Shown: in pieces, positions 12,756-29,356 of the stretch
Position numbering within the stretch: the first letter of the stretch is position 1
Layout of the letters: the number at the start of each line of letters is the position of its first letter
From: Catellatospora sp. TT07R-123
GTDB lineage: Bacteria > Actinomycetota > Actinomycetes > Mycobacteriales > Micromonosporaceae
Assembly: GCF_018327705.1 (NCBI RefSeq)
Contig: NZ_BNEM01000002.1
Coordinates: 3,162,001-3,226,000 of the forward strand
Direction: 5' to 3'
DNA: 64,000 nucleotides
The notes under the pieces: model-generated
The model's input: only the letters and a program-made list of their open reading frames with translations
The model's database searches: none
What the model was told of the DNA's origin: nothing
Made by a program: the position numbers and the translations under genes

Positions 12756-12773
12756 TGACTGATGACTCAGTCA
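12756..12773. promoter_or_regulatory. Operator-like palindrome upstream of the MFS gene
   Basis: TGACTGA-TGAC-TCAGTCA: perfect 7-bp arms with a 4-nt centre, unusually AT-rich for this DNA. A 19-base string covering it recurs exactly inside the oligopeptidase B gene (27532-27550), and a one-mismatch relative lies at 27195-27212. Likely a TetR-type operator, with the regulator at 14293 the best candidate. Confidence 0.6.
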
Positions 12774-12810
12774 GTGGATAGCCTGGCAGGGAAGCCGGGA
12801 GGGATGTCTG

Positions 12811-12906
12811 ATGGCCACGCGGGCCACGGGAACGAGCACGCAGGTCCGGGAGCAGGTCGTCGTCAAGCGCTGCTGGAGCCGTCGGGCGGCGCGGCAGTTC
12901 GGTTGA
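12811..12906 (+). CDS. Possible 31-codon leader peptide upstream of the MFS transporter
   Basis: ATG at 12811 is preceded by GGGAGG at proper spacing and opens a 31-codon frame (MATRATGTSTQVREQ, then a basic segment with VVVKRCWSRRAARQFG). It ends 61 bp before the transporter. A nested hairpin overlaps its stop (TTCGGT 12898-12903 with ACCGAA 12926-12931; GAGTGC 12905-12910 with GCACTC 12916-12921). The pairing of a small ORF with a hairpin resembles translational attenuation leaders of efflux genes, but this is inference; it may simply be untranslated leader. Confidence 0.3.
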   Translation: MATRATGTSTQVREQVVVKRCWSRRAARQFG

Positions 12907-12967
12907 GTGCCGGACGCACTCCGACACCGAACGCCCTTCCCTCTCTCCTCAGCTTGGAGCTCTTCCC

Positions 12968-14239
12968 ATGTCCGGCCTCGCGGTCGTCACCGCTGCCCGC
13001 CGTTACCGTGCCCTCATCGCCAGCCCGGGTGTCGCCAGGGTCGCGGTGCCCTCCCTGATCGGCCGCCTGCCCTACGGCATGGCGACCCTGGTCTTCGTGC
13101 TCGCCGTGCAGCACGGCACCGGCTCGTACGCCGTCGCCGGCATCGCCACCGGCGCGCACTCGGCCGTCACCGCGTTCACCGCCCCGTGGCTGGGCCGCCT
13201 GTGCGACCGCGGCCACGCCGTCGCGGTGCTGCGGAGCACCGGCGTGCTCTATGCCGCCCTGCTGACCGCGATGGTGGTGGTGCTGTGGCGGCACGACCCG
13301 GTGTGGCTGGTCGTCGCGCTGGCGGCCGCCGCCGGGGCCGCCAACCCGCCCGTCGGCGCGGTCACCCGGGTGGTGCTGCCGGGGCTCGCGCCCGCCCACG
13401 CCAAGACCGCGTACGCCTTCGACGCGATCACGGTCGAGCTGACGTACGTGCTCGGGCCGATGCTGATCGCGCTGGTGACCGCGCTGGCCAACCCGTACCT
13501 GGCGGTGGTGCTGACCGCGCTGCTGGCCACCGCGGGCTCGCTGGGCCTGGCCGCCGCGCCGGGCCTCACCGCCCGCTACCGCGAGATCCACACCGGGGCG
13601 GGCACCGCGGCCCCGGCCCGGCGCGACCGCACCCGGCTGCTCCTGCTCAGCATGGTGATCGTGCTCATCGTCGGCGCCCTCGAAGCCGCCGCGTACGGCG
13701 TGATGGAAGTCGCCATCCCCGCCTACGCCGCCGACCTGGGCACGCCCCAGTTCGCCGGGGCGGTGGTCGCCGCGTGGAGCGCCGGATCCATCACCGGCGG
13801 CATCTGGTTCTCAGGCATGAATCCGCGGCTTAGTCAAGCCAGGCTGTTCGCTCTGCTGCTGTGCCTCAACACCCTCGGGTTCGCCGCGATGCTGCTGGCC
13901 CACGGCCTGCCGAGCCTGGCGCTGATCCTCTTCCTCGGCGGAATGGTCATATCCCCGACAACAGCGGTCGAGTGCGCGCTCGTCACCGACATCGCCCCGG
14001 CCGGGCGCAGCACGGAGGCGTTCACGCTGGTAGGGACGGGGATCTATGTCGGTTTCGCCGCCGGGTCGTCGCTGTCGGGCGTGCTGATCTCCCGCGGCAC
14101 CGCGCTGACCAGCGTCATCCTCGTCGCCACCGCCATGGTCGGGCTCGGTGCGCTGCTGGCGCTGACCGGGCGCGGGCGCATCGGCGCCGACGCCGCCCGC
14201 GGGGTCGCGGCCGCATCGGACACACCGGTACGGGCCTGA
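12968..14239 (+). CDS. Major facilitator superfamily transporter
   Basis: A 423-residue MFS protein with twelve predicted helices. The first cytoplasmic loop carries GRLCDRGHAVAVLRS, a variant of the MFS A-motif, and the C-terminal half has GMVISPTTAVECALVTD. Such proteins usually export drugs or move small metabolites. The ATG at 12968 follows TTGGAG. A short patch around 13815-13850 uses AT-richer codons (MNPRLSQARLF) than the rest. It precedes a TetR gene on the same strand and carries the operator-like palindrome upstream, so it is plausibly controlled by that repressor. Substrate unknown; peptides or amino acids are conceivable given the neighbours. Confidence 0.88.
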   Translation: MSGLAVVTAARRYRALIASPGVARVAVPSLIGRLPYGMATLVFVLAVQHGTGSYAVAGIATGAHSAVTAFTAPWLGRLCDRGHAVAVLRSTGVLYAALLTAMVVVLWRHDPVWLVVALAAAAGAANPPVGAVTRVVLPGLAPAHAKTAYAFDAITVELTYVLGPMLIALVTALANPYLAVVLTALLATAGSLGLAAAPGLTARYREIHTGAGTAAPARRDRTRLLLLSMVIVLIVGALEAAAYGVMEVAIPAYAADLGTPQFAGAVVAAWSAGSITGGIWFSGMNPRLSQARLFALLLCLNTLGFAAMLLAHGLPSLALILFLGGMVISPTTAVECALVTDIAPAGRSTEAFTLVGTGIYVGFAAGSSLSGVLISRGTALTSVILVATAMVGLGALLALTGRGRIGADAARGVAAASDTPVRA

Positions 14240-14251
14240 TCAGCGACTCAG
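14236..14251. promoter_or_regulatory. Weak palindrome ahead of the second TetR gene
   Basis: CTGA-TCAGCGAC-TCAG, overlapping the MFS stop and 42 bp before the TetR start. It ends in GACTCAG, the heptamer also present in the sites at 12764, 16232 and 27538. Weak on its own, noted as a possible autoregulatory site. Confidence 0.3.
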
Positions 14252-14292
14252 CCGATGCTCGCCATGGTCGATTGTGCGTTAGGGTTTGGCGC

Positions 14293-14895
14293 GTGGCCCG
14301 ACGAACTGCCGAAGTGCGCCTCGATGCGCTGCTGCGCACCGCCGTCGACGTGATCGTCGAGCGCGGGTTCGCCAACACGCGCACGGCCGACGTCGCCAAG
14401 GCCGCCGGAGTCAGCCAGGCGCTGGTGTTCTACCACTTCACCAGCAAGGACGCCCTGCTGGCGCAGGCTTTCGCGTATGCGGCCGAGCAGGACGTGGCCC
14501 GGCTGCACGCGGTCATCGAATCCAACGCCACATCCACCGAGAAGCTGAAGCGGCTGGTGAAGCTGCTCGCCCCGGCCGGGCGGTCCAAGTCGTGGCTGAT
14601 GTGGATCGACGGCTGGTCCGAGGCGCTGCGCACCCCGGAGCTGGAGAAGGTGTCCCGGAAGATGGATCTGCGCTGGAAGGAGGGGCTGACCGAGGTCATC
14701 GCGGCCGGGGTCGCCGACGGCTCCTTCACCTGCGACGACCCGGCCGGTGCCGCCTGGCGCATCAACGCCATCATCGACGGTCTCGCCGTCCAGCTCACCG
14801 TCCACGAGAAGGCCATCTCCCGCAAACAAGCCTTCGAATGGATGCGCATGGTGACTGCTCGCGAGGTCGGCATAGATCCCGCCGACCTCGCTTGA
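14293..14895 (+). CDS. TetR-family regulator with BetI-like C-terminal domain
   Basis: A 200-residue TetR protein starting at GTG 14293. The HTH is clear: ANTRTADVAKAAGVSQ then ALVFYHFTSKDALL. The C-terminal part (KSWLMWIDGWSEALRTPEL, then RWKEGLTEVIAAGVADG and WRINAIIDGLAVQLTVH) matches the BetI-type ligand domain, a group often found with amine, amidohydrolase and peptidase genes. It lies between the MFS gene and the convergent HDAC-like gene, close to the DmpA-like peptidase. I infer it binds the TGACTGA-type palindromes of this region, but binding is untested. Confidence 0.9.
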   Translation: MARRTAEVRLDALLRTAVDVIVERGFANTRTADVAKAAGVSQALVFYHFTSKDALLAQAFAYAAEQDVARLHAVIESNATSTEKLKRLVKLLAPAGRSKSWLMWIDGWSEALRTPELEKVSRKMDLRWKEGLTEVIAAGVADGSFTCDDPAGAAWRINAIIDGLAVQLTVHEKAISRKQAFEWMRMVTAREVGIDPADLA

Positions 14896-14898
14896 CTG

Positions 14899-15013
14899 CT
14901 GGCGCCCGCTCCGCGGGCGCGGCACGCTCGCTCTGCCGCTGGCGCCCGCCTCCGCGGGCGCGGCACGCTCGCTCTGCCGCTGGCGCCCGCCTCCGCGGGC
15001 GCGGCACGCTCGC
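14899..15013. repeat. Tandem repeat, ~41-bp unit, nearly three copies
   Basis: Units start at 14899 (40 bp, one C missing), 14939 and 14980 (partial). Each contains GCGCCCGCCTCCGCGGGCGC, itself an 8-bp-arm hairpin, followed by GGCACGCTCGCTCTGC. The array begins 3 bp after the TetR stop, at the convergent end with the HDAC-like gene, so it forms serial hairpins in the 3' region. Confidence 0.85.
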
Positions 15014-15020
15014 CTTTCAG

Positions 15021-15084
15021 GCGGCGTCTTCCCTCGTCGCTGCCGAGCCTTCGGCTCGGTCACGCTCCTCAGTCCAGACGCCGC
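15021..15084. terminator. Convergent terminator structure with a UUCG-type stem-loop
   Basis: Outer arms GCGGCGTCT (15021-15029) and AGACGCCGC (15076-15084) enclose a perfect stem CCGAGCC-TTC-GGCTCGG (15043-15059) closing on a C(UUCG)G tetraloop. It sits between the convergent TetR and HDAC-like genes. Confidence 0.6.
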
Positions 15085-15112
15085 CGGCGAGCGTGCGAGA
15101 CCCGCGTGGGGT

Positions 15113-16177
15113 TCAGCGGGTGGTGAGGCCTTGGAGGGTCGCGACCGTCAGGGCGCCGAGGGTCGGGAGGTGGTAGCCGCCCTCGTGGACGGCTACGGCC
15201 GGTAGGCCCAGGTCGGCGAGGATGGCGCCGGTGTCGTGGTAGCCCTGTTCGGTGACCTGGAGCGGGCTCTCCGGGTCGGCGGCGGCCGCGTCCACGCCGA
15301 GGGAGAGCACGATGGCGTCGGCGCGGCCCGCGACGAACTCGGCCATCCGGCGTACGCCCGCAAGCCAGGTCTGGTCGCCGCTGCCCGGCGCGATCGGGAT
15401 GTTGAGGTTGGCCCCCTCGCCCGCGCCGGTGCCGGCCTCGTCGCCGAACCCGGCGTAGTGCGGGAACCAGCCCGCGCCCGGGTCCACGTGCACCGAGGTG
15501 TAGAGCACGTCGGCACGGTCGTAGAAGATCGACTGGGTGCCGTTGCCGTGGTGGGCGTCGACGTCGATCACGGCCACCCGGGCGACTCCGGCCCGGCGCA
15601 GCGCCAGCGCCGCGACGGCGGCGTTGTTCAGGTAGCACGAGCCGCCGAAGCCGGTGCGGGTGGCGTGGTGGCCGGGCGGGCGGCAGAGGGCGTACGCGGC
15701 CCGCTCCCCCGCGGCGACCAGGTCGGCCGCGGTCGCCGCGGCGTGCGCGGCGGCCTGGGCGGCGGGCCAGGTCCCCGGCCCGACCAGCGTCATCGTGTCG
15801 TAGCAGAACTGCCCGGCGCGCGCGTGCACGGCCGTCGGGCGGCGCACCGGCAGCCCTTCGAGCATCGCCGGAGTCGGGAAGACGTACGGCACCACGCGGT
15901 TCTGGTGGTCCAGGTAGCCGCCTTCGCACCACTCGCGATAGATGTTCTCCAAGTGCGCCACCAGGGCCGGGTCGTGTGCCTGTACGAGCAGGTCGTCGGC
16001 GAGCGGGCGGGCCTGGACCAGCCGCGCGCCCGCGCCGGTCAGCGCCGCGCGCAGCACCGTGGCGCGTTCGGGGAGTTCGGTGCCGGGCGTGCGTACGCCG
16101 ATCCAGATCTCGGCGTCGGGAACGTGCCGCAGCACGTCGTCGCTCCACACCACGGGCAGGTCCAACTGCTTCGCCAT
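15113..16177 (-). CDS. Histone-deacetylase-superfamily amidohydrolase (acetylpolyamine amidohydrolase-like)
   Basis: A 354-residue zinc amidohydrolase of the HDAC/AcuC/AphA superfamily that removes acyl groups from an amine such as an acetylpolyamine or acetyl-lysine. The active-site motifs are intact: RPPGHHATRTGFGGSCYLN (histidine dyad), IDVDAHHGNGTQ (zinc Asp and His) and the late SLGVDAAAADP and EGGYHLPTLG loops. Length fits the bacterial family. The start is ATG at 16177, 75 bp from the divergent DmpA-like peptidase. The shared promoter contains a perfect 16-bp palindrome. The pairing suggests joint breakdown of acylated or beta-linked peptides and amines. Substrate not determinable. Confidence 0.88.
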   Translation of the reverse strand: MAKQLDLPVVWSDDVLRHVPDAEIWIGVRTPGTELPERATVLRAALTGAGARLVQARPLADDLLVQAHDPALVAHLENIYREWCEGGYLDHQNRVVPYVFPTPAMLEGLPVRRPTAVHARAGQFCYDTMTLVGPGTWPAAQAAAHAAATAADLVAAGERAAYALCRPPGHHATRTGFGGSCYLNNAAVAALALRRAGVARVAVIDVDAHHGNGTQSIFYDRADVLYTSVHVDPGAGWFPHYAGFGDEAGTGAGEGANLNIPIAPGSGDQTWLAGVRRMAEFVAGRADAIVLSLGVDAAAADPESPLQVTEQGYHDTGAILADLGLPAVAVHEGGYHLPTLGALTVATLQGLTTR

Positions 16178-16222
16178 CCCGGCATGATGCCAGCCTTCAT
16201 CGGCTCCTCACAGGGGTCGTTA

Positions 16223-16238
16223 CTGAGTCGAGACTCAG
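16223..16238. promoter_or_regulatory. Palindrome in the HDAC/DmpA divergent promoter
   Basis: CTGAGTC-GA-GACTCAG, perfect 7-bp arms, 15 bp before the peptidase start and 46 bp before the amidohydrolase start. It shares the GACTCAG heptamer with the MFS-upstream site but has a different arm spacing, so the same regulator is plausible but not certain. Confidence 0.6.
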
Positions 16239-16252
16239 CTAGGCTCCCGCCC

Positions 16253-17353
16253 ATGCCCCGCGTGACTGACCTCGGTATCACCATCGGTTCCCTGCCCAGC
16301 GGCCCCAGCCGCTCCATCGTCGACGTGCCCGGCGTCGGCGTCGGCCACGCCACCGTCTGGCGCGACGAGCAGCCGCCACCGCTGGGGCGCGGCGCGGCGC
16401 GCACCGGGGTGACCGTCATCGACCTCGGCGGCAGCGGCTTCCACGCCCCGATCCCGGCGGGCGGCTCGGTGCTCAACGGCGCGGGCGAATGTACCGGCCT
16501 GCTGTCCGCGCAGGAATGGGGGCTGGTCGAGAGCCCGATCTTCCTCACCTCCACCATGCAACTCGGCCGCGTGTACGACGCCGCCTGCGAACTGCTGATG
16601 GCCGAGGAACCCGCGATCGGCGACGACGACGTGATCATCCCCGTGGTCGCCGAGTGCGACGACAGCTTCCTCAGCGAGTCACGCCGCATGCAGGTCACCC
16701 GCGACGACGTCGCCGCCGCGCTGGCCGCCGCCCGCGCCGGTGCGGCCGCCGCCGACGCCGACCGGGCCGCCGGGCGCGTCCCGCAGCCGCCCGCCGAGGG
16801 CGCGGTCGGCTCCGGCACCGGCATGAGCTGCCTGGGCTTCAAGGGCGGCATCGGCACCGCGTCCCGGGTCGTGCCCAGCGGCCACACCGTCGGCGTGCTG
16901 GCGATGACGAACTTCGGCGAGCGCGAGCGGCTGACGGTGGCGGGCGTACCGGCCGGACGGCTGCTGCCCGGGGCCGCCGCCCCGACCGCGCCCCCGGCCG
17001 GGTCCTGCGTCGTCGTGATCGTCACCGACGCGCCGATCGACCCCGCCGGCTGCCGGCGGCTGGCGGCCCGCGCCGGGCTCGGCCTGGCCCGTACCGGCTC
17101 CACCGCCCACCACGCCAGCGGCGAGATCTTCCTCGCCCTGGCCACCGGGCTGCGGGCACCGCGCGGCGGCCTGAGCGAGCGGACGGCCCTGCAGGGCCGG
17201 GCACTGGATCCGTACTTCGCGGCCGTCGTCGAGGCCACGGAGGAGAGCGTCCTGAACAGCCTGCTCAACGCCCCGACGGTCACCGGCCGCAACGGCAACA
17301 CCTCCGAAGGCCTCCCGATCGACCAGCTCACCCCCCTCCTCCACCACCCCTGA
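16253..17353 (+). CDS. P1-family (DmpA/BapA-type) N-terminal-nucleophile aminopeptidase
   Basis: A 366-residue proenzyme of the DmpA family (peptidase clan with beta-peptidyl and L/D-aminopeptidase members). These self-cleave before a Ser that becomes the N-terminal nucleophile. Here Ser251 in PPAGSCVVVIVTDAPI aligns with the DmpA/BapA cleavage site (Ser250), so processing between Gly250 and Ser251 is expected. Other family signatures: GSVLNGAGECTGL near residue 75, GSGTGMSCLGFKGGIGTASR and MTNFGERERL. No signal peptide, so cytoplasmic. It is divergent from the amidohydrolase and followed by a C-rich 3' region. Likely trims N-terminal residues from short or unusual peptides. Confidence 0.93.
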   Translation: MPRVTDLGITIGSLPSGPSRSIVDVPGVGVGHATVWRDEQPPPLGRGAARTGVTVIDLGGSGFHAPIPAGGSVLNGAGECTGLLSAQEWGLVESPIFLTSTMQLGRVYDAACELLMAEEPAIGDDDVIIPVVAECDDSFLSESRRMQVTRDDVAAALAAARAGAAAADADRAAGRVPQPPAEGAVGSGTGMSCLGFKGGIGTASRVVPSGHTVGVLAMTNFGERERLTVAGVPAGRLLPGAAAPTAPPAGSCVVVIVTDAPIDPAGCRRLAARAGLGLARTGSTAHHASGEIFLALATGLRAPRGGLSERTALQGRALDPYFAAVVEATEESVLNSLLNAPTVTGRNGNTSEGLPIDQLTPLLHHP

Positions 17354-17468
17354 CCCCACACCGCCCCACACCACACCGCCCCACCCAGCTCCGCCGCGTC
17401 CCACCCCGCCCTCCCCCGCCCTGCCCCGCCCCGCCCTGCCCTGCCCTGCCCCTGCGCCGCCCCGCCCC
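17354..17468 (+). other. C-rich, G-poor 3' tract after the aminopeptidase
   Basis: About 115 bases made almost only of C with scattered A, T and G (repeated CCCCACACCGCC and CCCTGCC blocks), directly after the stop codon and before hairpin family B copy 1. The composition is that of a Rho-utilisation (rut) region in the plus-strand transcript. No coding potential is seen. Confidence 0.5.
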
Positions 17469-17478
17469 GTCTTTTATT

Positions 17479-17537
17479 GACGCTGGCCTATTACGTGGAC
17501 TTTGACCTTGCCTCAGTCGACGTAATAGGCCAGCGTC
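17479..17537. repeat. Dispersed inverted repeat, family B, copy 1
   Basis: Perfect 18-bp arms GACGCTGGCCTATTACGT (17479-17496) and reverse complement (17520-17537), 23-nt loop. Related to 21263-21347 and 57703-57761. AT-richer than surrounding DNA. Lies 3' of the aminopeptidase. Confidence 0.85.
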
Positions 17538-17555
17538 TACATTGGCGCCGTGGGT

Positions 17556-17616
17556 GATCGCCGTCTGCGGTCGCATGGTGCGGATGCAGCGCATGTTTCG
17601 ACCGCAGACGGCGATC
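17556..17616. repeat. Second hairpin next to family B copy 1
   Basis: Perfect 18-bp arms GATCGCCGTCTGCGGTCG (17556-17573) and reverse complement (17599-17616) with a 25-nt loop that has its own GCATG direct pair. Unrelated in sequence to families A and B. Two long hairpins within 140 bp precede the GH13 promoter. Confidence 0.75.
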
Positions 17617-17708
17617 TCCACGCGACCCACCCGCGGCAGCGCCCCACGCGGCAGCGCCAAGCGGTAGCGCGCCCGAGCGGCAGCCGGGTAGCGTCTCCGA
17701 TCACGACT

Positions 17709-17786
17709 GGAAAGCGCTTTCCGCAACCATTGACCCAGCCCAGACCCGCCTAGTAAGGTTCGAATCCGATACAGAAAGCGGTTTCC
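17709..17786. promoter_or_regulatory. LacI-type operators upstream of the GH13 glucosidase
   Basis: GGAAAGCGCTTTCC (17709-17722) is a perfect 14-bp palindrome, and GAAAGCGGTTTCC (17774-17786) is a near copy. Both fit LacI/GalR-family operators with a central CG. They lie 35-112 bp before the glucosidase ATG, bracketing the likely promoter. No LacI gene is adjacent, so the regulator is elsewhere. Confidence 0.75.
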
Positions 17787-17820
17787 ATGCCGTTTCCGTA
17801 CGCCGAACTCCGGAGACCCC

Positions 17821-19449
17821 ATGAGCAGGCACTCCCGACCGTGGTGGCGCGACGCCGTCATCTACCAGGTCTACCCGCGCAGCTTCGCCGACGGGGACGG
17901 CGACGGGATCGGTGACGTCAACGGCCTGCGCGACCGCCTCCCCTACCTGCGTGACCTCGGCATCGACGCGATCTGGCTCAGCCCCTGGTACGTCTCCCCC
18001 ATGGCCGACGCCGGCTACGACGTCGCCGACTACCGCGACATCGACCCGCGGTTCGGCTCCCTGGCCCACGCCGAGGCGTTCCTCGCCGAGGCGCACGCCC
18101 TGGATCTGCGCGTCATCGTCGACATCGTGCCCAACCACTGCTCCGACCGGCACCCGGCGTTCGCGGCGGCACTGGCGGCCGCGCCCGGCGCCCCGGAGCG
18201 GGACCTGTTCTGGTTCCGGCCCGGCCGGGGCGAGCACGGCGACCAGCCGCCCAACGACTGGCGCTCGCACTTCGGCGGCCCGGCCTGGACGCGGGTCGAC
18301 GACGGCGACTGGTACCTGCACATGTTCGCCCCCGAGCAGCCCGACTGGAACTGGGACCACCCCGCGGTGCGCGCCGACTTCGAGACCACGCTGCGGTTCT
18401 GGCTCGACCGGGGCGTGGACGGTTTCCGCATCGACGTCGCCGACCACCTGGTCAAGGACCCGGCGCTGCCCGACCAGTCCACTCTCGACCCCGCCGCGAT
18501 CCGGCCGTGGCGCGACCAGGACGGGGTGCACGAGATCTTCCGGAGCTGGCGCGCCATCGCCGACACGTACCCCCAGCAGGCGGTGTTCGTCGGTGAGCTC
18601 TGGGAACCGAACGCCGACCGGTTCACCCGCTACCTGCGCCCCGACGAGCTGCACACCGGGTTCAACTTCGCGTTCCTGGCCTGCCCCTGGGACGCGCTGG
18701 CGTTCCGGGCGGTGATCGACGAGACGCTGGGCACGCACGCGCTGGTCGGTGCGCCGGCGACGTGGGTGCTGTCCAACCACGATGTCGTACGCCACGTGAC
18801 GCGCTACGGCCGCGCCGACACCTCGCACAGCTTCGCCCCCGACGCGATGACGCAGACCGCCGACCTGGCCCTGGGCACCCGGCGGGCGCGGGCGGCGGCG
18901 CTGCTCAGCCTCGCCCTGCCCGGCAGCGCGTACGTCTACCAGGGCGAGGAGCTGGGTCTGCCCGAGGTCCAGGACATTGCGGCCGAGCTGTTGCAGGACC
19001 CGCGCTGGCTGCGGTCGGGCTTCACCGACCGGGGCCGCGACGGCTGCCGGGTGCCGCTGCCCTGGTCGGGCACTGCCAAGCCGTACGGCTTCAGCCCCGA
19101 CTGGGCCACCGCCGACCCGTGGCTGCCGCAGCCGGAGGCGTGGGCGGCGCTGAGCGCGCAGGCCCAGGCGGGCAGCCGCCCGTCCATGCTGGAGCTGTAC
19201 CGGCGCGCCCTGCACCTGCGGCGCACCGAGCCCGACCTCGGCGACGGCACCCTCACCTGGCTCGACGGCGCGGGCCCGGCCGCCCACGGCGTGCTGTACT
19301 TCCGGCGCGGCGACGGCTTCGCCTGCCTGGTCAACCTGTCCGCCGAGCCGGTGCCGCTGCCGCCGCACGGCTACCTGCTGCTGGCCAGCGACCCGCTACA
19401 GGAGCTCAAGGTCGCCCCGGACAGCGCGGTCTGGCTGCGGCTGGTCTGA
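17821..19449 (+). CDS. GH13 alpha-glucosidase / oligo-1,6-glucosidase-like
   Basis: A 542-residue cytoplasmic GH13 enzyme that hydrolyses alpha-glucosidic bonds of maltose-type or isomaltose-type oligosaccharides. The N-terminus WWRDAVIYQVYPRSFADGDG is typical of the subfamily. Catalytic residues: nucleophile Asp205 in GFRIDVADHL, acid/base Glu259 in VGELWEPN and Asp321 in LSNHDVVRH. A C-terminal beta domain with YLLLASDP ends it. Length is usual. The ATG at 17821 has CGGAG upstream. It is a monocistron controlled by two LacI-type operators and followed by a hairpin at 19488-19529. Sugar transport must come from elsewhere. Confidence 0.93.
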   Translation: MSRHSRPWWRDAVIYQVYPRSFADGDGDGIGDVNGLRDRLPYLRDLGIDAIWLSPWYVSPMADAGYDVADYRDIDPRFGSLAHAEAFLAEAHALDLRVIVDIVPNHCSDRHPAFAAALAAAPGAPERDLFWFRPGRGEHGDQPPNDWRSHFGGPAWTRVDDGDWYLHMFAPEQPDWNWDHPAVRADFETTLRFWLDRGVDGFRIDVADHLVKDPALPDQSTLDPAAIRPWRDQDGVHEIFRSWRAIADTYPQQAVFVGELWEPNADRFTRYLRPDELHTGFNFAFLACPWDALAFRAVIDETLGTHALVGAPATWVLSNHDVVRHVTRYGRADTSHSFAPDAMTQTADLALGTRRARAAALLSLALPGSAYVYQGEELGLPEVQDIAAELLQDPRWLRSGFTDRGRDGCRVPLPWSGTAKPYGFSPDWATADPWLPQPEAWAALSAQAQAGSRPSMLELYRRALHLRRTEPDLGDGTLTWLDGAGPAAHGVLYFRRGDGFACLVNLSAEPVPLPPHGYLLLASDPLQELKVAPDSAVWLRLV

Positions 19450-19483
19450 GCGGCCCGACACCGCGGACGACCCCCCGCAGTGA

Positions 19484-20650
<1,167 letters not shown>

Positions 20651-20669
20651 TCCGGCCTGTGTGGATCGT

Positions 20670-21417: not shown

Positions 21418-22503
21418 TCAAGCGGTGGGGCCGGTCGGGGTGCCGTTCGCGGCGGCGGCGATGCCGTCGCCCACGTGGGGCAGCAGGCAGGCCGCCTGGT
21501 GGCCGCCGTGCAGCGGCAGCACCGGCAGTGCCTCGCCCGCGCAGCGCGCCGCGATCCCGGCCCGCTGGGCAGTGCCGTCGGCCACCGCGGGGCAGCGCGG
21601 ATGGAACCGGCACCCGGCCGGTATCCGCGACGGGTCCGGCGACTCCCCCGCCAGCACGATCGGCTCCCGCCCCGCCTCCGGCAGCACCGAGATCAGCGCC
21701 GACGTGTACGGATGCTTCGGCACCGCCAGCACCTGCTCGGTCCGCCCCACCTCGACGATGCGCCCGAGGTACATCACCGCGAGCCGGTCGGCGATGTTCC
21801 ACGCCAGCCCGAGGTCATGCGTCACGACCAGCACCGACAGGCCCAGCTCGTCGCGCAGGGACAGCAGCAGGGCCAGGATCTCGCCGCGCACCGAGGCGTC
21901 CAGCGACGCGACCGGCTCGTCCGCGATGATCAGCTCCGGTTCGAGCACCAGCGCACCCGCGATCACGACCCGCTGACGCTGCCCGCCGGACAGCTCGTGC
22001 GGGTACCGCCCGAAGAATCGCTCCGCCGGGCGCAGCCCCGCCTGCGAGAGCGCTCGGGCGACCAGTGCCTTCTCGTCGCCGGGCACCTTGTGGATGCGCA
22101 GGCCCTCGGCGACGGCCTCGTACACGGTGCGGCGCGGGTTGAGGGCGCCGGTCGGGTCCTGGAGCACCAGCTGCACCCGGCGGCGCAGCGCCTTGAGCCC
22201 GGCCGAGCGGTAGTCCAGCGGCCGGCCGTGGTGCAGCACCTGGCCCGCGTACGGCCGCTGGAGCCCCAGCAGCGCGCGGGCCAGCGTGGTCTTGCCGCTG
22301 CCGGACTCCCCGGCCAGGGCCACGATCTCGCCCCGGTCGACCGACAGCTCGACCCCGTCGACGGCCCGGATCGGCGGCACCCCCTTGACCGGCGCCCCGA
22401 ACCCGACCTTCAGCCCTCGCGCCTCGATCACCGGATGCACCGAGAACCGGTCCGCGCCGGCGGCTCCGGCCGCCGCCCCGGGCCGTGCGACCTGCTCACT
22501 CAT
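21418..22503 (-). CDS. Oligopeptide ABC transporter ATPase, DppF/OppF type
   Basis: A 361-residue ATPase, last gene of the five-gene peptide-uptake operon. Walker A GESGSGKTT, signature LSGGQRQR, Walker B LIIADEPVASLD and the C-terminal oligopeptide-transporter domain with CRFHPRCP are present. The C-terminal tail after the second Cys cluster is low-complexity. ATG at 22503 overlaps the upstream ATPase stop by four bases (ATGA), with GGGAGG inside the preceding gene, so the two are translationally coupled. It pairs with the DppD-type ATPase to energise the permease. Confidence 0.93.
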   Translation of the reverse strand: MSEQVARPGAAAGAAGADRFSVHPVIEARGLKVGFGAPVKGVPPIRAVDGVELSVDRGEIVALAGESGSGKTTLARALLGLQRPYAGQVLHHGRPLDYRSAGLKALRRRVQLVLQDPTGALNPRRTVYEAVAEGLRIHKVPGDEKALVARALSQAGLRPAERFFGRYPHELSGGQRQRVVIAGALVLEPELIIADEPVASLDASVRGEILALLLSLRDELGLSVLVVTHDLGLAWNIADRLAVMYLGRIVEVGRTEQVLAVPKHPYTSALISVLPEAGREPIVLAGESPDPSRIPAGCRFHPRCPAVADGTAQRAGIAARCAGEALPVLPLHGGHQAACLLPHVGDGIAAAANGTPTGPTA

Positions 22504-23471
22504 GACGGACCTCCCACGTGGACGCAGGCGGCGCTGCGGGCGTCGTCGACGCGGCGCAGCGCGATGTCGTGCTCGGCGCATTCGCCCAGCGCCACCGGGC
22601 AGCGCGGCGCGAAGGCGCAGCCGCCGTCGAGGTCGCGCGGGTCGGGCGGGTCGCCGGGCAGCCCGCGCGGGGCGCGGCGGGAGGCCGGGTCGCCGATGAC
22701 CGGGAACGCCGCCGCCAGCGCCCGCGCGTACGGGTGCGCGGCGGCGGCGAACAGCTCGTGGCCGGGACCGTGCTCGACCACGCGGCCGGCGTACATGACG
22801 GCGACGCGGTGGCAGGTGGAGGCGAGCACCGACAGGTCGTGGCTGATCAGGATCAGGCCCAGTCCCCGCTCCCGGACCAGGTCCGTGAGCAGCGTCAGCA
22901 CCTGGGCCTGCACCATCACGTCCAGCGCGGTGGTCGGCTCGTCGGCGATGATGAGCCGCGGCTCGCAGGCCAGCGCCATCGCGATCATGACGCGCTGCTT
23001 CTGCCCGCCGGACAGCTCGTGCGGGTAGGAGTCGGCCCGCCACGCGGGCACCCCGACCTGTTCCAGCAGGTCGGCGACCCGGGCGGCCGCCGTACGGGCC
23101 GAGGTCCTCGGCGCGTGCAGCAGGATCGGTTCGGCGATCTGGCGGCCGACGGTGCGCACCGGGTTGAGGGCGTGCATCGCGCCCTGGAACACGATCGAGG
23201 CGTCGTTCCAGCGTACGGCGCGCAGCTGGCCCCAGCTCATGGTGAGCACGTCGGCGCCGTCGAGTGCGATCCGCCCGGACACCTCGGCGGTGCCCGGCAG
23301 CAGCCGCAGGATCGCCCCGGCCAGGGTCGACTTGCCGCAGCCGGACTCCCCGGCCAGGCCGAGCGTCTGCCCGGCGTCCAGGGACAGGTCCACGCCGCGC
23401 ACGGCGGGGACTCCGACGCCGCGGTCGCGGTAGGACACCCGCAGATCCGATATCTCCAGCAGGGGTGCCAT
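22500..23471 (-). CDS. Oligopeptide ABC transporter ATPase, DppD/OppD type
   Basis: A 323-residue ATPase of the peptide operon. Walker A GESGCGKST, Q-loop FQGAMHALNPVRTV, signature LSGGQKQR, Walker B LIIADEPTTALD and the C-terminal CAFAPRCPVALGEC motif place it in the OppD/DppD family. Starts at ATG 23471, overlapping the permease stop by one base. Together with the downstream OppF-type subunit it forms the cytoplasmic heterodimer. Confidence 0.93.
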   Translation of the reverse strand: MAPLLEISDLRVSYRDRGVGVPAVRGVDLSLDAGQTLGLAGESGCGKSTLAGAILRLLPGTAEVSGRIALDGADVLTMSWGQLRAVRWNDASIVFQGAMHALNPVRTVGRQIAEPILLHAPRTSARTAAARVADLLEQVGVPAWRADSYPHELSGGQKQRVMIAMALACEPRLIIADEPTTALDVMVQAQVLTLLTDLVRERGLGLILISHDLSVLASTCHRVAVMYAGRVVEHGPGHELFAAAAHPYARALAAAFPVIGDPASRRAPRGLPGDPPDPRDLDGGCAFAPRCPVALGECAEHDIALRRVDDARSAACVHVGGPS

Positions 23472-24340
23472 CACATCTCCAGCCGTGGGTCGAGGATGCG
23501 CTCCAGCGCCCGGCCGCACATGTTGAACGCGCGGACCACCAGCACCACCGACAGGCCGGGGGCGAGCACCCACCACCAGGCGTCGAGGTCGATCGCGCCG
23601 AGGTCGTACGCCTGCTCCAGGATGCGGCCCCAGGAGACCCGCAGCGGGTCGCCGAGGCCGAGGAACGACAGCGTGGTCTCGGCGATGATCGCGACGGAGA
23701 CGGTCAGCGTGGTGTTGGCCAGCACCAGCGGCATCACGTTGGGCAGCACGTGCCGGGTCATCTGGTGCCAGTGGCCGCCGCCCAGGGCGCGGGCCCGTTC
23801 CAGGTACGGCCGCGCCTCGATGGCCATGGTCTGCGCCCGCACCAGCCGGGCGGTGCCGGACCACGACGTCACGCCGATCACGATGACCACGGCGACGAGC
23901 TTGGGCACCGCCGGCGGGAACACCGTGGCCAGCACGATCGCCAGCGGCAGGTACGGGATGACCAGGAACCACTCGGTGAGCCGGTTGAGCGTGCCGCCGA
24001 GCAGGCCGCTGAAATGGCCGGAGGTGATGCCGACCAGGGTGCCCAGCACCATCGAGATCACCGTGGCGGCCAGCCCGACCAGCAGCGTGATCTGGCTGCC
24101 GTGGACGACCATGGTGAGCACCGAGCGGCCCGCGTTGTCGGTGCCGAGCGGGAACGCCCAGCTCGGCGGTTGGAGCGGGCGGCCGGGCGCCTTGGTGATC
24201 TCCAGGCCGACCGGGTCGGCCAGCAGGTCCGCGAAGATCGCGACCAGCGCGAACAGCACCAGCACGATCAGGCCGGACCGGCCCTCGCGGTCGCGCAGGA
24301 AGCGCCGCCAGGTCGGGACACGCAGGGCAGTGATCGTCAT
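23471..24340 (-). CDS. Oligopeptide ABC transporter permease, DppC/OppC type
   Basis: A 289-residue membrane protein with the OppC N-terminal helix, a conserved FPLGTDNAGRSVLTMVVHG loop and five further helices. The ATPase-contact EAA-like loop is ARALGGGHWHQMTRHVLPN. Starts at ATG 24340, overlapping the DppB-type gene by four bases. It forms the channel with that partner. Confidence 0.92.
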   Translation of the reverse strand: MTITALRVPTWRRFLRDREGRSGLIVLVLFALVAIFADLLADPVGLEITKAPGRPLQPPSWAFPLGTDNAGRSVLTMVVHGSQITLLVGLAATVISMVLGTLVGITSGHFSGLLGGTLNRLTEWFLVIPYLPLAIVLATVFPPAVPKLVAVVIVIGVTSWSGTARLVRAQTMAIEARPYLERARALGGGHWHQMTRHVLPNVMPLVLANTTLTVSVAIIAETTLSFLGLGDPLRVSWGRILEQAYDLGAIDLDAWWWVLAPGLSVVLVVRAFNMCGRALERILDPRLEM

Positions 24341-25350
24341 GACGCACGCACCCGGGGGTCCAGCACCGGCATGAGCAGGTCGGCGACGAGGTTCATGACG
24401 ATCACTCCGGCCGAGAAGAACAGGAACAGGCCCTGCAGCAGCGGGATGTCCGGTCCGCGCAGCGCGTCGAAGGTCAGCAGGCCCAGCCCCGGCCAGGAGA
24501 ACACCGTCTCCACCGTGATCGCCCCGGCCACCACGAAGCCCATGCTGAGGAAGAACAGGGTCATCGACGGCAGCAGCGCGTTGGGCAGCGCGTGGCGCCG
24601 CATCACCAGGTCGTCGCGCAGGCCCTTGGCCCGCGCCGTGGCCAGGTAGTCGGCGCGCCGCTCGTCCAGCATCGACGACCGCATGATCAGGGAGTACTCG
24701 GCGACGTAGACGACGGTGAGGACGGTGACCGGCAGCACCATGTGCCACAGGGTGTCCACGACGGCGGGCAGGGTGGTGCGCGGGTCGCTCATGCCCCGGG
24801 CCGGGAAGACGCCGTACTTGTTGAGCAGCACCAGCAGCACCAGGCCGAGCAGCCACTCCGGCACCGAGTAGAAGGTGACGGCGAGGCTGGAGGCGACCCG
24901 GTCGAACCGGCTGCCGTGGCGCCAGCCGCTGCGCGCGCCCAGCCATACGCCGATCCCGGCGGCCAGGACCAGCGCGGTGCCCGACAGCAGGACGGTCGGC
25001 AGGATGCGCTCGCCGATCACGTCGACGACCTTGGCGTGCTGGCTGAACGAGACGCCCAGATCGCCCTGGAGCAGCGCGCGCAGGTACTTGCCGAACGCCG
25101 TGTACCACGGGTCGGTGAGCCCGAGCCGGTCGCGCAGTTCCCGCAGCGCCTCGGGGTCGGCGTTGCGCCCGCGCGGGGCGAACGCCTTGGCCGGGTCGCC
25201 GGGCAGCACCCGGAACAGGAAGAAGTTGACGACCGTGACGAACAGCAGCATGGCCAGCGCCGAGAGCAGCTTGCGCAGGACGTACCCGGCGGAGAGGGTC
25301 CGGCGGGGCCGGTGCGTCGCCGCACCGGCCCCGTCGCCGACGCCGCTCAC
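24337..25350 (-). CDS. Oligopeptide ABC transporter permease, DppB/OppB type
   Basis: A 337-residue permease with the OppB signature FFLFRVLPGDPAKAFAPRG after helix 1, LGVSFSQHAKVVDVIGERI and the coupling loop YLATARAKGLRDDLVMRRHA. Starts at GTG 25350, sharing GTGA with the stop of the binding-protein gene, so translation is coupled to it. The frame is open far upstream, but that region belongs to the binding protein in another frame. Confidence 0.92.
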   Translation of the reverse strand: MSGVGDGAGAATHRPRRTLSAGYVLRKLLSALAMLLFVTVVNFFLFRVLPGDPAKAFAPRGRNADPEALRELRDRLGLTDPWYTAFGKYLRALLQGDLGVSFSQHAKVVDVIGERILPTVLLSGTALVLAAGIGVWLGARSGWRHGSRFDRVASSLAVTFYSVPEWLLGLVLLVLLNKYGVFPARGMSDPRTTLPAVVDTLWHMVLPVTVLTVVYVAEYSLIMRSSMLDERRADYLATARAKGLRDDLVMRRHALPNALLPSMTLFFLSMGFVVAGAITVETVFSWPGLGLLTFDALRGPDIPLLQGLFLFFSAGVIVMNLVADLLMPVLDPRVRAS

Positions 25351-27242
25351 TCCCGGTCGTCCGCGTTCTTGCGACGGCGGCTGACCAGCACGATCACCAT
25401 GACGATCAGCGCGAGCAGCACCACCGCCCCGGCGACGATCAGCACGACCAGCACCGTGGACAGGCTGTCGTTGCCGGCGGGGGCCGCCGAGGTGACCGGC
25501 TGGATGTGGCGGTAGCTGTGCGTGCCGTACTGGAAGGCGAGGATGCCGCCGTTGCTGGGCTGCGGGACGAACCCGGTGAACCGGTCCGACCGGTACGCCT
25601 CGGACTGGTTGTAGTAGTACGTCAGCGAGTACGCGACGTCGTCGTACAGCAGCTTCTGGGCCGCCTTGACCACCTCGGCCCGCGCCTTCGGGTCGATCAT
25701 GGTCTGCTGCTGCCGGTACAGCTTGTCGAACTCGGGGTTGCAGTAGAAGCTGTCCGACCAGCCCGCCGCGATCTCGCCGTCCTCCTCGTACGAGCGCTGG
25801 TCGCAGGTCATCACCGACAGCTGGAAGTCGGGGTCGGGCTCGACGACCCAGCCCCACTCGAACAGGTCGAACTCGCCCTTGCCCAGCACGCTGGTGAGGT
25901 TGTCCTCGCTCATGATCGAGACGGTGACCTTGATGCCGACGTCCTTGAGCCAGGAGCGCACGTACTCGGCGGACTGCTTGGAGTATTCCGAGGAGTCGCG
26001 GCCGAACAGGCGGAGCTCCAGCTTCCTGCCGTCCTTGGCGCGTACGCCGTCGGCGCCCTTGGCGTAGCCCGCGGCGTCGAGGATCGCGTTCGCCTTGGCC
26101 GGGTCGAACGCGCGGGCGTCGGCGCCGGGGTTCCAGTGCATGTCGGCGTAGATCGGCGGGATCACGCCGGAGGCGGGGCTGCCGTGGCCGTTGAGCACCT
26201 TGTCGACCAGGGTCTTGCGGTCGATGGCGGTGTCGATGGCCAGCCGGACCTGCTTGTCCTTCAGCGCCGGGTGCCCGTCGCCGATGGCCTTGCCGTCGAC
26301 GGTGGCGGCGCCGAGGTTGTAGCCGATCTCGTTGAAGCCGTAGTACTTGGCGTCGTTGACGGTGATGCCGGGCTTGCCGACCAGGGTGTCCGCGATCGCG
26401 GCGGGCAGTTCCTGCGCCATGTCGATCTCGCCCTGGCGCAGCGCCTGGGCCAGCGCGGAGTCGTCGGCGAAGACCGTGAACACCAGCTCGTCGATCTTCG
26501 GCGCCCCGTCGAAGTACGACTTGTTGGCGGTGAACCGGTAGAACTGCCCCTTCTTCGCCTCGGCCAGCCGGAACGGCCCCGAACCCACCACATCCTTGTC
26601 GTTGGCGAAGGTGCCCGCGTCCTTGGCGCTGACCTTCGACCAGACGTGCTCGGGCAGGATCGGCACGGCCAGGCGCAGCATGATCGGGCTGGGTTTCTCC
26701 GTGGTCATGACCACGGTCGCGTCGTCGGGCGCGGTGATGTCGGTGATGTTGTCGACGTAGCTGCTGTACTGCCCGTTGGCCGTCTCGTCGGTCTTGGCCC
26801 GCTTGAACGTGTAGACGACGTCCTTGGCGGTCAGGTCGGTGCCGTCGGACCACTTCACGCCCGGGTGCAGGTGGTAGGTCCAGGTCTTGCCGTCGGCCGA
26901 GGTCTCCCAGCTCTGCGCGAGCGAGGGCTCGGGCGAGAAGTCCTTGGCGGAGGAGACGGTGAGGTAGTCGTACATCAGCTGGTACATGTCGAACGCGGCC
27001 GCGACCACGCCGACGTACGGGTTCAGCGAGTCGATGTCCTGCTTGACGCCGATGACGAAGCTCGTCTTGCTCCGCGGCGGGTTGGCGGCACCGGGCGAGG
27101 GCGACTCGTCCGCGGCGGCCGGGGCGGCCAGCGCCCCGAGCGCGGCCAGCGCGACGGCGGCCACCATGGCCACCCGGGCGCGAACTCCGCGTACTGACTG
27201 ATTGGTCAGCCAGGATTTGGGAGCAGGTGGGGTGCTGCTCAT
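25347..27242 (-). CDS. Family-5 peptide-binding protein with a C-terminal membrane anchor
   Basis: A 631-residue extracellular solute-binding protein (SBP_bac_5), first gene of the peptide operon. A Sec signal (about residues 22-45, ending ALAAPAAADESP) has no lipobox cysteine. The binding domain shows DLTAKDVVYTFKRAKTD, YGFNEIGYNL and the late YYYNQSEAYRSDRF region. Instead of a lipid anchor, the C-terminus carries one hydrophobic helix, VLVVLIVAGAVVLLALIVMV, followed by a basic tail SRRRKNADDRE, a type-I anchor. ATG at 27242 has a GGGAGA site. An operator-like palindrome lies inside its first codons (27195-27212). It delivers peptides to the DppB/C pore. Confidence 0.92.
   Translation of the reverse strand: MSSTPPAPKSWLTNQSVRGVRARVAMVAAVALAALGALAAPAAADESPSPGAANPPRSKTSFVIGVKQDIDSLNPYVGVVAAAFDMYQLMYDYLTVSSAKDFSPEPSLAQSWETSADGKTWTYHLHPGVKWSDGTDLTAKDVVYTFKRAKTDETANGQYSSYVDNITDITAPDDATVVMTTEKPSPIMLRLAVPILPEHVWSKVSAKDAGTFANDKDVVGSGPFRLAEAKKGQFYRFTANKSYFDGAPKIDELVFTVFADDSALAQALRQGEIDMAQELPAAIADTLVGKPGITVNDAKYYGFNEIGYNLGAATVDGKAIGDGHPALKDKQVRLAIDTAIDRKTLVDKVLNGHGSPASGVIPPIYADMHWNPGADARAFDPAKANAILDAAGYAKGADGVRAKDGRKLELRLFGRDSSEYSKQSAEYVRSWLKDVGIKVTVSIMSEDNLTSVLGKGEFDLFEWGWVVEPDPDFQLSVMTCDQRSYEEDGEIAAGWSDSFYCNPEFDKLYRQQQTMIDPKARAEVVKAAQKLLYDDVAYSLTYYYNQSEAYRSDRFTGFVPQPSNGGILAFQYGTHSYRHIQPVTSAAPAGNDSLSTVLVVLIVAGAVVLLALIVMVIVLVSRRRKNADDRE
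27195..27212. promoter_or_regulatory. Operator-like palindrome inside the start of the peptide operon
   Basis: TGACTGA-TTGG-TCAGCCA: the same 7-4-7 layout as the MFS-upstream site with one arm mismatch. It lies 30-47 bp inside the binding-protein coding region, close enough to block transcription. Confidence 0.5.
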
Positions 27243-27292
27243 CAGGTTCTCTCCCTTGGTGCCCGGGGGCGTGGGGGGTAAGGTCCCCGGTC

Positions 27293-29356
27293 ATGCCGCA
27301 CGATCGAGACGATCACGACGCCACCGTCCCGCCGGTCGCCCCGACCGAGCCGCACGAGCGTGAGCTGCACGGACGCCGGTGGACCGACGAGTACGGATGG
27401 ATGCGCGACCACGGCGACCCGCGGCTTCTCGCCTACCTGCGCGCCGAGCGCGAGTACCACGATGCCGCCGCCGATCGCTGTGAACGCACCCGGACCGAGG
27501 TGTTCCACGAGGTGGAGCAACGCCTCCTCCCGACTGATGACTCAGTCAGTTGGAGACATGGTTCACGTTTCTACTACACCCGGACCGTCGCCGGAAGTGA
27601 GTACGAGCAGTTCTTACAAGCCGGTCATGACGGCGACGCCGACCGGGTGCTGCTGGACGGCGCCCTTCTGGCGGGTACGGACGGGTTCGCCGAGATCGGG
27701 CTGCGGGAGCTGAGCCCCGACAACACGCTCCTGGCGTACTCCGTGGATACCACCGGCGACGAGGTCTATCGACTGCGGTTCCGCCAGTTGGCGACGTTGA
27801 CGGACCTTTCGGAGGAGCTGCCCCGCACGTACTACACCGGGGCGTGGAGCGCCGACTCCGGCACGTTCTTCTACACCGTGCACGACGAGCTGTTCCGCCC
27901 GCACCAGGTGTGGCGGCACACGATCGGCACCCCCGCCGACGCCGACGTGCTCGTGCTCCAGGAGGACGACGCGCGCCACGAGCTGACCGTACGGGCCAGC
28001 CGGGACCTGCACTGGATCATGATCGAGTCGCGCAGCCGCGACACCAGCGAATGGCACCTGGTCCCCGCGCACGAGCCGCACGCGGCCCCCAGCCTGGTCG
28101 CCCCCCGGCGGCGCGGCGTCGAATACCGGATCGACCACGCCGACGGGCAGCTGGTCGTCACCACCGACGACGGCGCCCCCGAGTTCCGGGTCGTCACCGC
28201 CCCGGTCGGGACCCCCGGTCCCGGGCACTGGACGCCGCTGCTGGCCGCCCGGCCCGGCGAGCGCCTGGTCGCCTGCCACGCGCTGCGCACCCACTGGCTG
28301 TGCGAGCTGCGCCGCGACGGGTTCCCGCTGCTGCGCACGATCGACCGGGCCACCGGCGCCGAGCTGGAGATCGGCTCCGGCCTGGCGGCGGGCAGCGTCG
28401 TCCTGGCCACCCCCATCGAGTACGACGACACCGCCGTCACCGTGCGCGTCGAGTCCCTGATCGACCCGCCCGCCTGGTACTGCGTAGACCTGCGCACCGG
28501 CGCCCGCGAGCTGCGCAAGCGCCACGAGGTGCCCGGCTACGACCCGGCCGCGTACCGCACGCAGCGGCGCCACGCCACCGCTCCCGACGGCACCGCCGTC
28601 CCCGTCACGCTGGCCTGGCGCGCCGGCACCCCGCTCGACGGCACCGCCCCCGCCCTGCTCTACGGGTACGGCGCCTACGAGGCGTGCCTGGACCCCGAGT
28701 TCGACCCGGTGCTGCCCAGCCTGCTCGACCGGGGCGTGGTCTACGCGCTGACCCACCCGCGCGGCGGCGGCGAGAACGGCCGCGCCTGGTGGCACGGCGG
28801 CCGCCTGGCCGCCAAGGCCAGCACGTTCACCGACCACCTCGCCGTGGCCGACTGGCTCGCCGACGGCATCGCCGACGGCACCCGGCTGGGCACGCGCGGG
28901 CTGTCGGCGGGCGGGCTGCTCCAGGGCGCGGTGTACTCGATGCGGCCCGAGCGCTGGGCCGCGGTCGTGGCCGAGGTGGCGTTCGTGGACGTGGTCACCA
29001 CCATGCTCGACCCCGACATCCCGCTGACCGTCAACGAGTGGGACGAGTGGGGCGACCCGCGGCGGGCCGAGGAGTTCGCGTGGCTGTGGGCGTACTCGCC
29101 GTATGAGAACCCGCCCGCCGGGCCCCGGCCGCCGCTGCTGGCCACGGCGGCGCTGCACGACCCCCGGGTGATGGTGCACGAGCCGGCCAAGTGGGTGGCC
29201 CGGCTGCGCGCCACCGCCGCCCCCGGCGACGGGCCGGTCTACCTGCGTACGGAGCTGGGGGCAGGCGCCCACACGGGCCCCGCGGGCCGCTACGCCCACG
29301 CCCGCTACGAAGCCGAGATCGCCGCCTTCCTCCTCACCCACCTCCGCACCACCTGA
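27293..29356 (+). CDS. ptrB: Oligopeptidase B-type serine peptidase (S9A)
   Basis: A 687-residue cytosolic prolyl-oligopeptidase-family enzyme. The DPDIPLTVNEWDEWGDP segment marks it as oligopeptidase B-like, which cuts short peptides after basic residues. Catalytic triad: Ser538 in TRGLSAGGLLQG, Asp623 in HDPRVMVHEPAKW and His660 in GAGAHTGPAGRY, where one extra residue sits before the histidine relative to the usual GAGHGG form. The N-terminal beta-propeller (about 70-400) restricts access to small peptides. Divergent from the peptide ABC operon with 50 bp between starts, which supports joint use of imported peptides. A 19-base operator-like string lies at codons ~80-86. Confidence 0.92.
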   Translation: MPHDRDDHDATVPPVAPTEPHERELHGRRWTDEYGWMRDHGDPRLLAYLRAEREYHDAAADRCERTRTEVFHEVEQRLLPTDDSVSWRHGSRFYYTRTVAGSEYEQFLQAGHDGDADRVLLDGALLAGTDGFAEIGLRELSPDNTLLAYSVDTTGDEVYRLRFRQLATLTDLSEELPRTYYTGAWSADSGTFFYTVHDELFRPHQVWRHTIGTPADADVLVLQEDDARHELTVRASRDLHWIMIESRSRDTSEWHLVPAHEPHAAPSLVAPRRRGVEYRIDHADGQLVVTTDDGAPEFRVVTAPVGTPGPGHWTPLLAARPGERLVACHALRTHWLCELRRDGFPLLRTIDRATGAELEIGSGLAAGSVVLATPIEYDDTAVTVRVESLIDPPAWYCVDLRTGARELRKRHEVPGYDPAAYRTQRRHATAPDGTAVPVTLAWRAGTPLDGTAPALLYGYGAYEACLDPEFDPVLPSLLDRGVVYALTHPRGGGENGRAWWHGGRLAAKASTFTDHLAVADWLADGIADGTRLGTRGLSAGGLLQGAVYSMRPERWAAVVAEVAFVDVVTTMLDPDIPLTVNEWDEWGDPRRAEEFAWLWAYSPYENPPAGPRPPLLATAALHDPRVMVHEPAKWVARLRATAAPGDGPVYLRTELGAGAHTGPAGRYAHARYEAEIAAFLLTHLRTT
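27532..27550. promoter_or_regulatory. Operator-like sequence inside oligopeptidase B
   Basis: GACTGATGACTCAGTCAGT, identical over 19 bases to the palindrome upstream of the MFS gene (12757-12775). It is about 240 bp into the coding region and AT-rich compared with its surroundings. With the site at 27195 it brackets the divergent promoters. Confidence 0.5.

Follow-up and report, generated by a model that had tools for sequence, protein, structure and literature searches.

Introduction

BetI, the choline-responsive repressor of the TetR family (TIGR03384), recognises in Ruegeria a palindromic box, ATTGACG*CGTCAAT, which lies within a protected region over the -35 box (PMC12442346). A different mode of repression is described for PurR at purB of Escherichia coli (He and Zalkin 1992, as cited in PMC4132739 and PMC10310618), where the repressor sits downstream of the start site and blocks elongating RNA polymerase. 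PurR at purB can be regarded as a precedent for roadblocking. The purB site reportedly lies within the coding sequence, a few hundred bp from its beginning. TetR regulons are known, and conserved in-gene operators are the feature of the locus described here. No published description of this regulon was found in the literature searched, most subscription journals being outside the scope of that search.

Occurrence of the operator motif

The DNA analysed (the window) is a 64-kb stretch that named relatives place in the genus Catellatospora. An earlier note on this DNA had reported two exact copies of a 19-base sequence and a relative of 7-4-7 design at 27195–27212, and a scan of the window confirmed all three. 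The 19-mer GACTGATGACTCAGTCAGT occurs at 12757–12775 and 27532–27550, has no further copy at up to three mismatches in the 64-kb window and appeared in 0 of 100 dinucleotide shuffles of it. It contains the palindrome TGACTGA-N4-TCAGTCA (7-4-7), which is perfect at 12756–12773 (operator 1) and has one mismatch each at 27195–27212 (operator 2) and 27531–27548 (operator 3). The note had considered a chance match of such an AT-rich 19-mer very unlikely; with a GC content of 47% (letter count) the sequence is AT-rich only relative to this genome.

Viewed from the window alone, a coincidence between a coding 19-mer and a real operator 15 kb away would seem conceivable: three palindrome matches at up to three mismatches, compared to a shuffle mean of 1.22, were reached in 8 of 100 shuffles and are not rare. 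The genome-wide scan that the note had proposed gave a sharper picture, since at up to one mismatch the 9.17-Mb genome contains exactly these three sites, with none for the reversed-pattern control. Allowing two mismatches yielded 11 matches vs. 9 for the same control, so that only the three best sites stand out; with the relaxed pattern TGACTG-N6-CAGTCA and one mismatch there were 10 matches vs. 6 for the control, and those other than the three known sites are background. This uniqueness, together with conservation across genera and, above all, the fact that all 13 ptrB orthologues retain their site (see below), leaves coincidence with a negligible probability. Chance as the origin of the sites was rejected on the genome-wide scan and the ptrB codon test.

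The comparison comprised 11 Catellatospora genomes and a family sample of 354 genomes. The perfect palindrome is present in exactly one copy per genome, at a single locus, in all 11 members of the genus. At up to one mismatch these genomes contain 27 sites, compared to 8 for a control pattern: 11 are operon sites, 10 ptrB sites and 2 binding-protein sites, and four could not be assigned, a number in line with background. The remaining eight binding-protein-side sites of the genus have two mismatches each. In the family sample, the exact palindrome was detected anywhere in 33 of 354 genomes and an orthologue of tetR2, the regulator gene discussed below, in 210. Scans at up to two mismatches gave 7 matches vs. 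6 for the control in a Hamadaea MAG, 17 vs. 7 in Rhizocola and 10 vs. 7 in Catelliglobosispora; the tetR2 loci of the latter two (L089, L090) showed no site at up to three mismatches.

Operator 1 and the peptidase-MFS operon

The following features surround operator 1:

12755–12784, plus strand: promoter of the S15-relic/MFS operon, with TTGACT at 12755–12760, an 18-bp spacer and TAGCCT at 12779–12784
12756–12773, no strand: operator 1, TGACTGA-TGAC-TCAGTCA, perfect palindrome within the promoter, assigned by sequence match and genus conservation
12811–12906, plus strand: relic of an S15 peptidase gene, 31 codons in total, consisting of the first ~13 codons and then a different tail to the stop
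12968–14239, plus strand: MFS transporter (PF07690)

In all 11 Catellatospora genomes, operator 1 occupies the spacer between the two promoter elements of TTGACT-N18-TAnnCT; overlap with a promoter, as in a local TetR-family regulon, was thus found in 11/11, and the motif also lies 5′ of tetR2 in three other genomes. The earlier note had placed this site upstream of the MFS gene. It does lie ~190 bp 5′ of the MFS start, but the relic of another gene stands in between. In 6 of the 11 genomes the gene order is operator 1, a gene for an S15 X-Pro-dipeptidyl-peptidase-like protein, MFS and tetR2, and the MFS gene is located between operator and tetR2 in 10 of the 11, G004 being split by a contig end.

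The S15 comparison covered 487 residues, and the full open frame was examined in G005 only (656 aa), where the protein has Peptidase_S15 and PepX_C domains and is CocE/NonD-like. Compared with G009, the window has lost the gene from roughly codon 13 almost as far as the stop: the alignment breaks near position 12849 and picks up again ~1.86 kb further on. An S15 orthologue was not found elsewhere in this genome, the best match (1.5e-12) having 43% identity over 88 residues. In the window and at loci L012, L018, L019 and L015, operator and MFS gene are kept, and the S15 gene is either reduced to a remnant start (G000, G001, G007 and G008) or was not seen (G004). By eye, apparent S15 remnants also lie behind the operator of L151 (G088).

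The MFS gene as founding or primary target was rejected, since the S15 gene directly follows the operator in 6 of 11 genomes. With S15 in first place there and a relic here, the presumed MFS operator becomes the operator of a peptidase-MFS operon. Judged by gene order, operator 1 is the predicted operator of an S15 peptidase-MFS operon of which the peptidase, encoded by the first gene, is lost here.

Assignment of the probable regulator

Downstream of the MFS gene lies the proposed binder:

14293–14895, plus strand: BetI-like TetR regulator (TetR2), with TetR_N and TetR_C_6 domains

TetR2 scored 55.6 bits with PF00440 and 79.5 bits with PF13977, both above cut-off, as expected of a member of the TetR family. 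Its scores with the BetI profiles were 67.5 bits for TIGR03384 (cut-off 201.3) and 57.7 bits for NF001978 (cut-off 118), far under the equivalog cut-offs, and BetI proper was therefore rejected as its identity; the designation BetI-like in the earlier note was appropriate as a likeness (67.5 vs. 201.3 bits). Among the neighbouring genes that were scanned, none was named as betA, betB or betT.

The assignment of TetR2 to the palindrome was made based on linkage. An orthologue with 93–99% identity is encoded in all 10 other Catellatospora genomes, and tetR2 adjoins the operon site in all members of the genus except G004, where site and gene are both at contig ends. Among the 22 non-Catellatospora genomes with an exact site, at least six (G088, G135, G136, G138, G344 and G196) have one within ~6 kb of a tetR2 orthologue, and in G344 and G196 it is located 5–6 kb from tetR2 and not at an evident target; nine of the rest carry the palindrome elsewhere, four are without a tetR2 orthologue, and for three the tetR2 position is not listed. 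A perfect TGACTG-N6-CAGTCA was found 61–72 bp upstream of tetR2 in G088, G344 and G196. Four distant MAG loci were also scanned (four of the six distant matches, the short partial matches L096 and L097 being left out), and at three of them one-mismatch versions of the motif precede genes for TetR2 homologues of 34–35% identity.

Linkage is not universal, the 210 family genomes with a tetR2 orthologue contrasting with only 33 that have an exact palindrome. At 28 of 34 tetR2 loci there was no good site within 300 bp upstream; nine of these loci (six Catellatospora, three of the Hamadaea genus) have the site at the S15/MFS operon promoter, and at the other 19, from many genera and including six from the largest genus (g23), no site was recognised. 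Nine wider tetR2 loci without exact sites (L156–L164) gave none at up to two mismatches. The 19 loci without a recognised site argue against a single operator shared by all TetR2 orthologues.

The neighbouring TetR at 12013 (TetR1), whose gene immediately precedes operator 1 in 10 of the 11 Catellatospora genomes, could by its position bind the palindrome instead of TetR2. However, relatives of TetR1 are missing from the 19-kb G004 locus around the site and from the other-genus loci with linked sites (L088; L151–L155), and on this ground TetR1 was rejected as binder. Its own upstream region (11925–12004) contains a different palindrome (AACGATCGTTCGTT), and it is the distant homologues of TetR2 that carry the motif, which makes binding by TetR1 very unlikely. 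The predicted binder is very probably TetR2, and the note's choice of the regulator at 14293 was upheld by the association of tetR2 orthologues and homologues with the motif.

Other sequence elements were observed around the two regulator genes. The stretch 11925–12004, between a membrane-protein gene and tetR1, holds a palindrome family (AACGAACG/CGTTCGTT) distinct from the operator motif and likely the operator of TetR1. At 12632–12720, between tetR1 and operator 1, CGGAACCCCTCGCCGAGTTGCCGGGCAATCGGGCG and its complement form a long, almost perfect inverted repeat, perhaps a terminator. A tandem GC-rich repeat unit (CTGGCGCCCGC...GCGGGCGCGGCACGCTCGC) lies 3′ of tetR2 at 14896–15010. It is followed by a histone-deacetylase-fold gene (PF00850; 15113–16177), which might encode an acetylpolyamine amidohydrolase; such a gene lies 3′ of tetR2 in 10 of 11 Catellatospora genomes and in G088, and ~5 kb from tetR2 in G344.

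Operator 3 within ptrB

The second exact copy of the 19-mer falls within a peptidase gene:

27293–29356, plus strand: oligopeptidase-B-like S9 peptidase, ptrB (PF02897, PF00326)
27531–27548, no strand: operator 3, one mismatch, ptrB codons 80–86, conserved in 13 orthologues
27549–27640, no strand: low-GC rare-codon patch in ptrB adjoining operator 3, GC 0.58–0.59, with conserved GGT90, TCA91 and AGT102

The encoded protein has the S9 N-terminal and catalytic domains and reached 380.4 bits with the NCBIfam equivalog NF007511, below its cut-off of 1313, hence the name oligopeptidase-B-like. Operator 3 lies 239–256 bp into the gene. The divergent binding-protein/ptrB locus is present in 10 of 11 Catellatospora genomes and the ptrB site was kept in 10 of 10; G004 has no ptrB orthologue (best 43%) and no second site. 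Outside the genus the search covered 12 genomes of nine other genera, not the whole family. Orthologues were found in three of them, with 71% identity in G088 (one mismatch in the site), 63% in G344 (two mismatches) and 62% in G142 (one mismatch), and the other nine had only a homologue of 42–46%. The earlier note had held that loss of the in-gene copies from orthologues keeping the protein would speak against an operator; the ptrB copy was retained by every one of the 13 orthologues detected (those of 10 Catellatospora genomes and of G088, G344 and G142; four genera; identities down to 62%).

The site was further compared with synonymous codon freedom, as the note had suggested. The codon alignment of the 13 ptrB orthologues has 472 columns with a degenerate residue common to at least 11 sequences; codons were considered rare when making up less than 25% of their family in these 13 genes and fixed at 85% or more. 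Only 12 of the 472 columns have a fixed rare codon. Four are within codons 81–86, namely ACT81 (13/13), GAT82 (11/11), TCA84 (13/13) and AGT86 (12/13), of which the last shares just its first base with the palindrome. Three others are just beyond (GGT90, TCA91 and AGT102). Hypergeometric values for this clustering were 3.5e-6 (codons 81–86) and 1.2e-7 (codons 81–102), the columns being treated as independent though the genes are related. Save for the two mismatches in G344, the half-sites are constant while the N4 spacer changes: spacer codon 83 varies, as does its residue (GAC, AGC, TCT, TCG and others), and codon 82 is GAG in two species. Ordinary PtrB homologues all encode T-D-x-S/T-V at this place, and the palindrome was present in 0 of 12 of their genes, with ACC or ACG for Thr in 11 of 12 and TCA in none; L175 uses ACT GAT and L173 GAT.

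The ptrB site is therefore located within coding sequence and kept at the DNA level, and these codon comparisons indicate that it is under DNA-level selection inside the gene, independent of the protein. The operator would have restricted the choice of codons in at least four genera, so that the enzyme gene doubles as a predicted repressor site. Alternatively, the conservation of this DNA might serve a promoter of the opposite-strand transport genes, another regulator of these genes or translational pausing at rare codons, with the palindrome being incidental, which would agree with a conserved low-GC patch that reaches ~90 bp past the palindrome. Such a function leaves unexplained the match with the promoter operator, the symmetry despite a changing spacer and the second site ~330 bp off, and we consider it improbable. 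As the rare-codon patch extends beyond the operator, something else may also be conserved alongside it. A TTA codon is found in this patch (27549–27640) in all 10 Catellatospora copies, and the patch is conserved past the operator.

Operator 2 and the divergent transport locus

On the other side of the ptrB start lie the transport genes:

25347–27242, minus strand: peptide ABC transporter solute-binding protein, first transport gene (PF00496)
27195–27212, no strand: operator 2, one mismatch, binding-protein codons 11–16, with one to two mismatches in 10/10 Catellatospora
27256–27284, plus strand: putative promoter TTGGTG-N17-TAAGGT of a leaderless ptrB transcript, with the ATG 8 nt downstream

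The binding-protein gene is followed on the same strand by an OppC-like permease and two oligo_HPY ATPases. Operator 2 has the 7-4-7 design noted earlier, with the correction that it is also intragenic, lying 31–48 bp into the solute-binding-protein gene, just ahead of a variable stretch. It precedes the ptrB start codon by 98 bp (96–98 bp across the genus) and is 328, 329 or 336 bp away from operator 3. Orthologue comparison had a divided outcome for this copy, which was kept in 10/10 Catellatospora but not found at up to two mismatches in G088, G344 and G142. Only overlapping three-mismatch versions occur in G088, and at up to three mismatches none was detected near the gene in G344 or in ~1.5 kb upstream for G142. 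Lacking a clear counterpart in the other three genera, operator 2 is so far a genus-level feature.

By reading, a similar -35/-10 layout and an apparently leaderless start were recognised in 13 of 13 ptrB orthologues, in a 50-bp intergenic gap. With the promoter in this gap and a site on either side, the two in-gene sites bracket the ptrB promoter. The note's statement that they bracket the divergent peptide promoters holds for ptrB, but the promoter of the transport operon was not located: a search of the minus strand within ptrB brought out no conserved sigma-70-like candidate. The low-GC patch next to operator 3 may contain the transport-gene promoter.

At this locus TetR2 would occupy the two in-gene sites ~330 bp apart. 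Both are found in the early part of their respective genes, which run in opposite directions, so that repression there is most simply, and most likely, explained by an elongation roadblock, possibly with the help of a loop. The two sites could instead be a loop pair: TetR2 dimers would bridge them and close the ~330-bp segment that includes the ptrB promoter, in the manner of lac or gal repression. In all 10 Catellatospora genomes with this locus, the conserved ptrB promoter does lie between them. Yet their spacing differs by 7–8 bp between clades (328/329 vs. 336) and gives no strict helical phase, and outside the genus the ptrB site was kept in 3/3 while a partner at up to two mismatches was not found (in G142, ~1.5 kb upstream scanned). 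A strict need for a loop is made less likely by the altered spacing and by the other genera, which keep operator 3 but have no clear partner for it. TetR-family dimers are not generally known to loop DNA, and a loop pair seems rather unlikely. As a tentative model that may well need revision, the divergent pair could be held shut in Catellatospora via its two in-gene operators, with one dimer per gene blocking elongation (or looping) and the ptrB operator alone constraining codons.

Predicted regulon and ligand

Taken together, the comparative data make it probable that TetR2 governs a local regulon for peptide use, in which it would repress the promoter at operator 1 and act by roadblock or looping within genes. 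The note's proposal of a local peptide-utilisation regulon with intragenic sites and one shared operator appears to hold on this evidence. TetR2 would act as a dimeric BetI-like repressor that binds TGACTGA-N4-TCAGTCA, and at operator 1, where the layout places it across the -35/-10 spacer, it would block initiation of the S15 peptidase-MFS operon. Two peptidases (S15 and S9), a peptide ABC transporter and an MFS transporter are its proposed targets.

Release of TetR2 may be brought about by a peptide-derived ligand, perhaps proline- or hydroxyproline-related. Genes for proline-racemase/hydroxyproline-epimerase-like and DapA-family proteins occur near the operon in G088 and in two of three Hamadaea-genus loci, and an FAD oxidase gene in all four, neighbours that hint at proline- or hydroxyproline-rich peptides. 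Relatives of the proline racemase, DapA-like and FAD-oxidase proteins were absent from the window and from ten ~19.5-kb congener loci, which speaks against a proline-related ligand in the present case. The neighbours of the motif in distant MAGs include polyamine-type ABC and FAD oxidase genes, suggesting that the wider TetR2 group may sense amines. Several TGACTGA-N4-TCAGTCT-like sites were observed around the TetR2-like gene in L092, L093 and L095 (two Acidimicrobiales, one Actinomycetes), together with FAD oxidase-like, aminotransferase and polyamine-type ABC genes; a related regulon is possible there.

The locus offers a clean natural case of an intragenic regulatory site for which comparison alone indicates protein-independent selection, with a likely binder at hand. 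It would constitute a small, testable Micromonosporaceae regulon of peptidases, a peptide ABC transporter and an MFS transporter, provides a concrete predicted operator for at least part of the widespread TetR2 orthologue group (210 of 354 family genomes) and may serve as a test bed for in-gene repression by TetR proteins.

Comparison with known systems

TetR2 resembles BetI in its C-terminal class (TetR_C_6), BetI being its best NCBIfam match, and differs from it in operator sequence and in its proposed targets, which are peptidases and a peptide ABC transporter. PurR at purB is a LacI-family protein acting on purine genes, whereas here a TetR-family protein is predicted and a second in-gene site is present, in Catellatospora, in the divergent gene. 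The layout of operator 1, a palindrome over the -35/-10 spacer beside the regulator gene, is that of classic local TetR-family repressors; unlike these, TetR2 apparently extends its control, via in-gene sites, to a second locus at a distance of 15 kb.
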